Positions 7,533 through 26,121 of a DNA stretch of 64,000 bases are shown here, piece after piece; the first letter of the stretch is position 1; each line of letters begins with the position of its first letter. The notes under the pieces are model-generated. The model was not told the origin of the DNA and did not search any database. It saw only the letters and a list, made by a program, of their open reading frames with translations. The stretch lies in NCBI RefSeq assembly GCF_030160455.1, contig NZ_BSOJ01000015.1:1-64000 (forward strand), given 5' to 3'. The translations under genes were made by a program, and so were the position numbers. This stretch comes from Limnobacter litoralis. GTDB lineage: Bacteria; Pseudomonadota; Gammaproteobacteria; Burkholderiales; Burkholderiaceae_B.

Positions 7533-8987
7533 TCAGTTGCGTTTGTCCTCCAACTCGATTTTCACAGCCTTGACCCGGTTATTCGTGTTGTCAAACTGCC
7601 CCTTTACCTCAACACGCTCGCCAGCACTCAAATCAGCAACACTCCCATCTTCAAACTGGGCTGCGCTGTAATCCACCGTTGTGCCGTCGGTCAGGGTAAA
7701 CAGGCTTGAACCTTGACTCAGACTGGCAATGACGCCATGAAGTTCAAAACTGTTGTTGGAAAATGTAGAGCCGCCTGTGGACTTGCATTCCACATTGTTC
7801 GCGACCAGGGTTCCATTGCTGAGATTGCCCTTGACCTCTACATAGGGTGTCCCTGTGGTGATACCGCAAACGTCAGAGGCACTTGAGTAACTGACATTCA
7901 CGTTTTGAACCGTAAAGGTCAGGGTGTTACTGGTCGTGTTCAGTGTGCCGTTTTTCGCCAGACCGTAAAGCTCGTTTCTACCGCCATCTTCTTTTTCCCG
8001 CTCGGCCTCTGTAGTAACGCGCGTGGCCTGTAATGTTGTGCCGTCATAGTTGCCCTTAACTTCAACAAACGCACCCACGGTGACCTGAGTCAAACCACGA
8101 AGCGAGGCGCCGCTGACGTTTACAGGCAGATCCGCGATTGTGAAAGTGTTCGGATCTTGATCGCCGGCATCATTTTGCACATAGCCCTCGATTTCAATCG
8201 CTGAATTCGCAAATTGGTCTTTTGCAGTTTTTGAAATAAGCTTGGTGGCTTGCAGGGTGGTGCCACCAGCAGTCAAGTTGTTACCGACCACCTTTACAAG
8301 CTGACCATTCGCCAGCCCGGTTGGCGCGGGTTGAACCCCACTGTAGTCAACAGTCAAGCCTGTGCCGATCTGAAAACTTGTATTGCCGGTGTTCAGGTTG
8401 GTGATTTGTCCCTGTGCTTCGTATACATTGCTGGCTGGTGCCATTGTTTTTTTAACCACCAAAGTGGCTTGATAGCTTCCGTCCGGTTTTGCGAGGGCAT
8501 ACACCTCCACGTAATTTCCCGCAGCAAGACTGGCAAAACTGCTGGCTTGGTCTTGATAGAAAGTGCCAGTATCCACAGTAAACGTCTGACCCAGCAACGT
8601 GAACTGGTTTGCACCAGAATTCACTGACGAAATGGTCCCAGCGAATTCCTTGTCCACGAGAATGTCGTTGGCCATACATTCAGTGCCTGTAGAATCGCTG
8701 TTACCATCAATTTGTACTTGCATGCCCATGTACAGATTGTCGGTACCCAACGGATTGCCGAGGTCATCATGCACCTTGGATTGAATGGTCGACCAACGAC
8801 ACCCGTTTATGACAATCGAGCCAAATCCCCTGATGGGGCCGGACGCAGATGCGGGTGCTACCGAAGCAGGCAAGGTGCTTGCGCCTCCTCCGCCTCCGCA
8901 GGCTGCCAAGGCGCTACCGACTGCAAGCACGATGACGAGCAATTTCAAAGGCACTGAAGGTGTGACGATCTTGACTTTGATGGACAT
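7533..8987 (-). CDS. DUF5666-repeat lipoprotein
   Basis: A 484-residue predicted lipoprotein of unknown function. The signal peptide ends in the lipobox L-A-A-C followed by a run of Gly. The rest is a series of about five to six beta-rich repeats of roughly 65-75 residues with motifs such as G-x-x-V-E-V-K-G and F-x-L-x-G-x-x-V-D-Y, characteristic of DUF5666 domains (compact beta-barrels, role unknown). It is probably exported and lipid-anchored. It is divergent from the S8 protease gene with about 128 bp between starts, and has its own terminator. The protein is Thr/Ser/Asn/Gly-rich with almost no Cys after the lipobox, as usual for secreted proteins. Not an enzyme as far as can be seen. Confidence 0.8.
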   Translation of the reverse strand: MSIKVKIVTPSVPLKLLVIVLAVGSALAACGGGGGASTLPASVAPASASGPIRGFGSIVINGCRWSTIQSKVHDDLGNPLGTDNLYMGMQVQIDGNSDSTGTECMANDILVDKEFAGTISSVNSGANQFTLLGQTFTVDTGTFYQDQASSFASLAAGNYVEVYALAKPDGSYQATLVVKKTMAPASNVYEAQGQITNLNTGNTSFQIGTGLTVDYSGVQPAPTGLANGQLVKVVGNNLTAGGTTLQATKLISKTAKDQFANSAIEIEGYVQNDAGDQDPNTFTIADLPVNVSGASLRGLTQVTVGAFVEVKGNYDGTTLQATRVTTEAEREKEDGGRNELYGLAKNGTLNTTSNTLTFTVQNVNVSYSSASDVCGITTGTPYVEVKGNLSNGTLVANNVECKSTGGSTFSNNSFELHGVIASLSQGSSLFTLTDGTTVDYSAAQFEDGSVADLSAGERVEVKGQFDNTNNRVKAVKIELEDKRN

Positions 8988-25301: not shown

Positions 25302-25335
25302 AGAGGCTCCGCGTATAGCCTATCTGACTTACCGT

Positions 25336-25490
25336 CCTTCGTGCACTGCCCGGTCTATCTCGCCTTCCTTCGTGCACAGCCCAGTCTGTCTTGCCTTCCT
25401 TCGTGCACAGCCCAGTCTGTCTTGCCTTCCTTCGTGCACAGCCCAGTCTGTCTTGCCTTCCTTCGTGCACAGCCCAGTCTGTCTTGCCCT
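25336..25490. repeat. 31-bp tandem repeat, 5 copies
   Basis: Units begin with CCTTCGTGCAC at 25336, 25367, 25398, 25429 and 25460, an exact 31-bp period. The last four are identical over nearly the whole unit; the first carries several substitutions (for example CTGCCCGGTCTATCTC). Each unit holds the palindrome GTGCAC. There are no spacers, so this is not a CRISPR. The period is not a multiple of three, which argues against a coding role. Confidence 0.95.
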
Positions 25491-25521
25491 TGAATTGCCC
25501 ATTCAACTTGTAATTGCCTCT

Positions 25522-25600
25522 GGCCTTGGAAGCCCGAGCGACAACTCGCCCCGGATAAAGCCGGGGCTCAGACAAGTCGCAGGTCGGGCAAGTTCCAAGT
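25522..25600 (+). repeat. Long imperfect palindrome, copy A
   Basis: A 79-bp element that can fold as one long hairpin: CTTGGAA (25525-25531) with TTCCAAG (25593-25599); GCCCGA (25532-25537) with TCGGGC (25584-25589); GCGAC (25538-25542) with GTCGC (25576-25580); and an apical 7-bp stem GCCCCGG (25548-25554) with CCGGGGC (25561-25567). Copy B is an inverted relative 270 bp away. The first 27 bases of the two copies match at 26 positions while the apical stem differs yet still pairs. Its position between convergent genes resembles REP/BIME elements. Confidence 0.85.
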
Positions 25601-25723
25601 CTGCGAGTCAACACAAGTGGGGCAATTCTTGAATCGGGCTGCGACAGAACAGGCAGTGCGCTTGGGGCAGACCGAGGCTTCGGTCGAAGTTGGTGAACAG
25701 TACGATAAGGGTCAAGCTAAGTT

Positions 25724-25771
25724 GGTCAGCAGGTCAGCAGGTCAGCAGGTCAGCAGGTCAGCAGGTCAGCA
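25724..25771. repeat. 8-bp tandem repeat GGTCAGCA, 6 copies
   Basis: Six perfect, uninterrupted copies of GGTCAGCA. Short perfect arrays of this kind usually vary in copy number by slipped-strand mispairing. The array lies between the two inverted hairpin copies and not inside a recognised gene or promoter. Confidence 0.95.
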
Positions 25772-25872
25772 GATTGGTTTGAATCCCTGTGCCGGTGTTC
25801 CGCGCTGTCAGGCTTTGCAGGTGGGTGTGTCACGCAGCGCGATTCAGGGTTGCCCGGCTGCTCAGCACCCGC

Positions 25873-25950
25873 AGCTTTGGAACATGCTCGACCTGCGACA
25901 TGTTTGAGTGGCTTGCAAAGCCACGAGTTGTCGCTCGGGCTTCCAAAGCC
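25873..25950 (-). repeat. Long imperfect palindrome, copy B (inverted relative to A)
   Basis: Read on the minus strand it parallels copy A. Outer stem: TTCCAAAGC (25941-25949) with GCTTTGGAA (25874-25882), 9 bp. Middle stem: GTCGC (25930-25934) with GCGAC (25895-25899). Apical stem: GTGGCTT (25908-25914) with AAGCCAC (25918-25924), 7 bp. The apical stem has the same length as in copy A, but five of its seven base pairs are different; a change in the outer stem is also matched on both sides. This preservation of pairing is direct evidence that the fold, and not the sequence, is conserved. Confidence 0.85.
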
Positions 25951-25980
25951 AGGGTTCGGAACAGCGTCATTTCGGGCAAG

Positions 25981-26121
25981 CCAAGCGCAAGTGACATGCA
26001 CACCTGCAATAGCCGACTGAGCAACAACCAAGCGCAAGTGACAAGCCCACCTGCAATAGCCGACGCAGCACCTACCAAGCGCAAGTGACATGCACACCTG
26101 CAATAGCCGACTCAGCAACAA
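25981..26121. repeat. 47-bp tandem repeat, 3 copies
   Basis: Units start with CCAAGCGCAAGTGACA at 25981, 26028 and 26075, an exact 47-bp period. Units 1 and 3 are almost identical; unit 2 differs at several sites (ACAAGCCCACC in place of ACATGCACACC, and a changed last 12 bases). The period is not a multiple of three. The array ends 33 bp before the qmcA stop. Confidence 0.93.

Follow-up and report, generated by a model that had tools for sequence, protein, structure and literature searches.

The convergent genes smpB and qmcA stand 856 bp apart in Limnobacter litoralis and 25-35 bp apart in eight congeners, which raises the question of what the pair of long inverted hairpins in the enlarged gap is and how it came to be there. 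We examined the locus in the window, by which we mean the whole stretch of 64,000 nucleotides analysed (contig NZ_BSOJ01000015.1, positions 1 to 64,000), along with the genome, the genus, the order and other phyla. Since the gap is this short in the eight congeners and no congener had a pattern match at smpB-qmcA, the element is, judged by sequence comparison, a gain of this genome.

Two inverted copies of a hairpin had been reported here in a preliminary description, and we recovered both (Table 1). They fold far better than shuffled sequences (−41 to −46 kcal/mol for each 91-nt stretch vs. about −30 for shuffles, z = −3.6 to −4.6), with a stable fold on both strands. The apical stem is GCCCCGG/CCGGGGC in A and GTGGCTT/AAGCCAC in B, such that five of seven pairs are changed with pairing intact, as had been described, and the outer-stem pair said to be altered on both sides indeed occurs as U-A (12 copies) and as C-G (9 copies). 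The limits first given to the copies, those of the core hairpins, were too narrow: the cores lie at the centres of imperfect palindromes of ~220-260 nt each, within a longer repeated composite. In the folds, the unit of the 31-bp left array serves as palindrome A's outermost arm on the left, and palindrome B has its outermost right arm within the 47-bp right array.

Table 1 Features of the hairpin element between smpB and qmcA, in window coordinates.
Feature	Position	Strand	Basis and remarks
Composite repeat element	25323-26121	.	Between smpB and qmcA; limits approximate, outer limits fuzzy
Left tandem array	25323-25488	+	31-bp unit, 5.4 copies; TRF, fold
Extended imperfect palindrome A	~25430-25688	+	RNA fold −118.9 kcal/mol, DNA fold −62.5
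Core hairpin A	25522-25600	+	Model R1; independent model R2 match 25532-25586
Conserved core of A, AACTCG-[apical stem]-CTCAGACA	25543-25574	+	Pattern match
(GGTCAGCA)n array between hairpins	25724-25772	+	TRF, 6.1 copies; copy alignment
Extended imperfect palindrome B	~25802-26022	-	RNA fold −117.4 kcal/mol, DNA fold −68.0; inverted repeats I3-I5
Core hairpin B, inverted vs. A	25873-25950	-	Model R1; independent model R2 match 25940-25889
Conserved core of B, AACTCG-[apical stem]-CTCAAACA	25901-25929	-	Pattern match
Right tandem array	25981-26121	+	47-bp unit, 3 copies; TRF, fold

A nucleotide search of the genome returned ten A-type and nine B-type copies, scattered over contigs and not clustered, and genome alignment showed near-identical copies at unrelated loci. 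When aligned and oriented, nine loci carried the complete unit, always with the A-type copy on the left and the B-type copy on the right, head to head, and differed in the copy number of the spacer array and outer arrays; the (GGTCAGCA)n spacer array was variable or missing in other genomic copies, and the tenth A-type copy (C30) was solitary. A second subtype, located between genes that we read as flhB and flhA (C17), forms a head-to-head pair of the same polarity at 540 bp, with GAC/GTC in stem three replaced by CGG/CCG, and two further divergent copies lie downstream of lysS (C2). A and B always form the left and right end, respectively, of a single repeated unit, so comparing the two alone gives weak evidence of selection; the strong evidence is that from independent families in other taxa.

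Those families differ in their stems and share the invariant part stem-AACTCG-[apical stem]-CTCA(A/G)ACA-stem. In the core, AACTC and TCA(A/G)ACA form the two sides of an asymmetric internal loop, and the stems on either side of it drift with compensatory change. In 37 distinct stem families, the arms paired at a mean of 8.24 of 10 positions compared to 5.55 ± 0.20 when right arms were permuted, and none of 5000 permutations was as high as the observed value. The covariation score over 28 aligned families was 0.544, as against 0.170 ± 0.022 when shuffled and 0.08-0.32 when slid, and in the second stem each of the ten pairs changes on both sides. Selection on the folded form, which had been proposed from A and B, is thus strongly supported. 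A covariance model built from the 28 families with sequences of the genus excluded (R2) had just two matches in the window, A (E = 6.1e-6) and B (E = 2e-4), and also recovered copies within the genus; we give no count from its phylum-wide search, in which 31 candidates were scored per genome and known carriers were missed. An Rfam scan of the window and 15 loci matched nothing at the hairpins, even with E-values of up to 5-10 admitted, so that a Betaproteobacteria toxic sRNA, considered as a candidate, was rejected. Positions 2081-2133 of locus L138 showed a sub-threshold Rfam match to c4-a1b1, the targets of C4 antisense RNA (33.7 bits vs. a cut-off of 46.7).

Further copies, sought in the genome and its relatives, were found in number together with covarying homologues. 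Within the genus, pattern matches were concentrated in four genomes (26 in L. litoralis, G000; 24 in G015, 23 in G011 and 15 in G016), each an independent amplification with its own stem sequences, and ranged from 0 to 6 elsewhere, near the reversed-pattern control; nine of 17 congeners had no hairpin beyond control level in this search. Across the order, 88 of 399 genomes matched and many had 5-17 copies; with the reversed control, more than one match was rare. The exact apical version occurred, among the matches listed, in Zoogloea, Denitromonas, Rhodoferax, Gallionella, Acidithiobacillus, Desulfobacterales and Syntrophaceae, as well as in Geobacter, Nitrospirae, Oribacterium, another Lachnospiraceae and Paludibacter, and the cross-phylum matches fold to the same shape. 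Because the 14-base core is near-identical, we infer from these sequences that the matches are homologous across phyla, as opposed to having converged on one fold. The plasmids searched held no match to the window element.

Several copies are shared between genomes at the same position. A single hairpin occupies one orthologous intergenic locus in four congeners (L050, L051, L053, L093), where it adjoins a gene for an amino-acid ABC transporter ATPase, and G000 and G015 have orthologous copies 3′ of lysS (L046, L066), of a family that has multiplied in G015 along with a conserved right tail of ~200 nt. Given these two shared copies, some copies persist by descent, possibly on account of a host function. 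A phage origin was rejected, as only about four of 121 pattern matches in viral contigs carried the stem. The clear viral cases lie in two contigs with phage-like genes (L359:7077-7125, 7907-7955 and 1138-1179; L278:5166-5214), and in L359 two true core hairpins adjoin duplicated small genes. Reading frames that run across hairpins (L163, L204, L222 and others) yield the recurring peptides KLALRAQT and NSPFGLKQ in unrelated genomes, and such frames would probably be wrongly annotated as proteins.

The paired arrangement extends beyond L. litoralis. Among 30 pairs of neighbouring hairpins 30-700 bp apart, which represent at least eight genera and include several from the same species that are not all independent, 28 were head to head, two direct and none tail to tail, with spacings clustered near 175, 221 and 300 bp. 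The locus that in G285 holds one pair holds an array of pairs in G397. The Zoogloea unit exceeds 600 bp and forms a nested palindrome whose ends fade. At Zoogloea dura loci (L144, L171 and others) the spacer is inverted in some copies with the orientation of the ends unchanged, as if from recombination between arms. In both units of G145, an intrastrand-triplex motif (CCCTCTCCC..GGGAGAGGGGTTGGGGTGAGGG) lies midway between the hairpins (L126:2053-2087, L127:2217-2251); as a general part of the element it was rejected, since it is present in that one family and not in most hairpin units examined.

The reading that we consider probable is that of a non-autonomous, dispersed DNA element of the REPIN or MITE kind, recognised through its folded ends by a factor encoded elsewhere. 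The unit consists of two long hairpins placed head to head, with a short non-coding spacer between them. In single-stranded DNA or in an extruded cruciform, the factor would recognise both folded ends and copy or move the unit. Slippage at the hairpins probably yields the tandem arrays of outer arms and spacer, and solitary hairpins are probably remnants of pairs. Movement is suggested because near-identical copies are dispersed, and a recognising agent seems called for because the core is strictly conserved across phyla and the polarity of the pairs is fixed.

We assessed gene context for 47 hairpins with callable neighbours, using long reading frames as an approximation to genes and leaving out another 19 hairpins that fall within long frames in GC-rich genomes. 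Fifteen hairpins were in sense (++), 11 in antisense (--), 10 between convergent and 11 between divergent genes, such that the convergent setting mentioned in the preliminary description is true of the smpB-qmcA copy and not general. The families listed for 81 flanking proteins were ordinary ones, and none recurred except acyl-CoA dehydrogenase (two). This context speaks for a DNA element that is indifferent to transcription, and against a terminator, because the hairpins are oriented at random with respect to genes and show no overall preference for convergent sites. The same counts weigh on the alternative that the hairpins are a multi-copy structured RNA that functions once transcribed, as a small RNA or UTR element, since sense and antisense, and convergent and divergent, placements are about equal. 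An RNA would agree with the stable fold on both strands, with an invariant asymmetric internal loop resembling those of protein- or ligand-binding RNAs, and with the retention of one orthologous copy in four congeners, but because the pairs are symmetric and head to head, one hairpin is always antisense to its partner; with more than half of the 17 congeners at control level and nothing in Rfam, we regard this alternative as unlikely.

We found no target duplication, sharp ends or clean empty site at the loci compared, where similarity fades outward, and at candidate empty sites in three related genomes the homology of the flanks ends short of the element, with right flanks that are not alike. 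Such fuzzy ends, together with the tandem arrays at arms and spacer, with the local arrays, and with the interiors flipped between the ends in Zoogloea copies, would fit hairpins that arose passively, through replication slippage, template switching and gene conversion, without a dedicated mobiliser. Neither the conserved core and pair polarity nor the near-identical copies at unrelated loci are in keeping with this origin, which we hold to be quite improbable.

Recognition of the dispersed DNA element by an enzyme from one of several known families was assessed by protein searches. Y1 transposases (PF01797) were absent from all four element-rich genomes (G000, G011, G015 and G016), the assembly of L. 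litoralis being a draft of 47 contigs, so that the REP-associated tyrosine transposase that the preliminary description had proposed to look for was not found in the host; in the genus, Y1_Tnp occurred only in G009, which carries a single old copy. Reverse transcriptase (PF00078), as would drive a group II intron or a retron, was likewise absent from the four, and integron integrase (TIGR02249 over cut-off) was found in six of 23 element-rich and five of 20 element-poor genomes. These three enzymes do not explain the distribution of the element. No transposase or other mobiliser was found among the flanking genes and families searched, nor a known insertion sequence that explains the hairpins, and a parent transposon with the same ends was not seen among flanking genes, with few wider pairs observed. 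The 23S intervening-sequence protein had no match, though its control likewise matched nowhere.

These results bear on whether the element is a REP, BIME or REPIN proper, one that a RAYT (Y1 transposase) moves. The architecture of such elements, namely inverted doublets that are intergenic and dispersed, accompanied by singlets and by doublets in tandem array (PMC3116915), is that seen here, and to this extent the likeness to REP/BIME noted at the outset stands. The transposase is what is lacking, in L. litoralis and the three other element-rich congeners, and a core hairpin of ~80 nt within a palindrome of ~220-260 nt contrasts with a REP, a palindrome of 20-40 nt with a GTAG/CGTC tag at one end (PMC3733652). 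The conserved block also lies near the tip and not at a GTAG foot, where no GTAG/CGTC tag was found among the invariant columns of the core hairpin, and a strict REPIN is accordingly very doubtful. That the hairpins are bidirectional transcription terminators or mRNA stabilisers is scarcely credible, for although smpB and qmcA converge and convergent genes flank several copies in L. litoralis, a placement that is as expected of tolerated insertions, convergent sites are not preferred across taxa and only some congeners have hairpins.

More tentatively, the non-autonomous element may belong to a superfamily of mobile paired-hairpin DNA that spans phyla and was hitherto unclassified, with the folded core AACTCG/CTCAAACA, recognised single-stranded or extruded by a factor other than RAYT, integron integrase or reverse transcriptase. 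A search for strings of the element's sequence in open-licence papers without their supplements returned nothing relevant, and an earlier description under another name is possible. If this reading is right, one structural signature would link intergenic repeats that seem separate and lineage-specific in many bacteria and would point to an enzyme that reads the shape of DNA, with the covariance model and core pattern as a means to seek that enzyme by co-occurrence. The element may also account for some spurious short proteins.

Among known systems, integron attC sites resemble the element in combining variable sequence with conserved structure in imperfect hairpins, but the present copies are scattered inverted pairs and not a cassette array, integron integrase is absent from most carriers tested, and the invariant columns contain no GTTRRRY/RYYYAAC boxes. 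ERIC, NEMIS and SMAG-type palindromic repeats are likewise lineage-specific amplified palindromes of intergenic space and have been described in narrow taxa, whereas the one core of the present element recurs across phyla. Palindromic families are also described among Geobacter multicopy sequences. Intrastrand triplex (TM) repeats (Holder et al. 2015, PMC4666352) resemble our element in that they are structured, intergenic and widespread and have no transposases beside them, but differ in a motif that most hairpin units examined do not contain. MITEs share the short non-coding unit, inverted ends and many copies, although here the ends are structured palindromes with fading borders and neither a parent transposon among flanking genes nor a target duplication at the loci compared was found. 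The closest likeness is to REPINs, from which the element departs in its far longer hairpin with a conserved near-apical internal loop in place of a tagged foot, in a host without Y1_Tnp, and in the recurrence of the same core in several phyla. As in REPINs, whose unit is an inverted doublet with decayed singlets and tandem clusters (PMC3116915), the element has no gene of its own and takes the form of intergenic inverted doublets, singlets and tandem clusters, with the head-to-head doublet as the unit in nearly all neighbouring hairpins.
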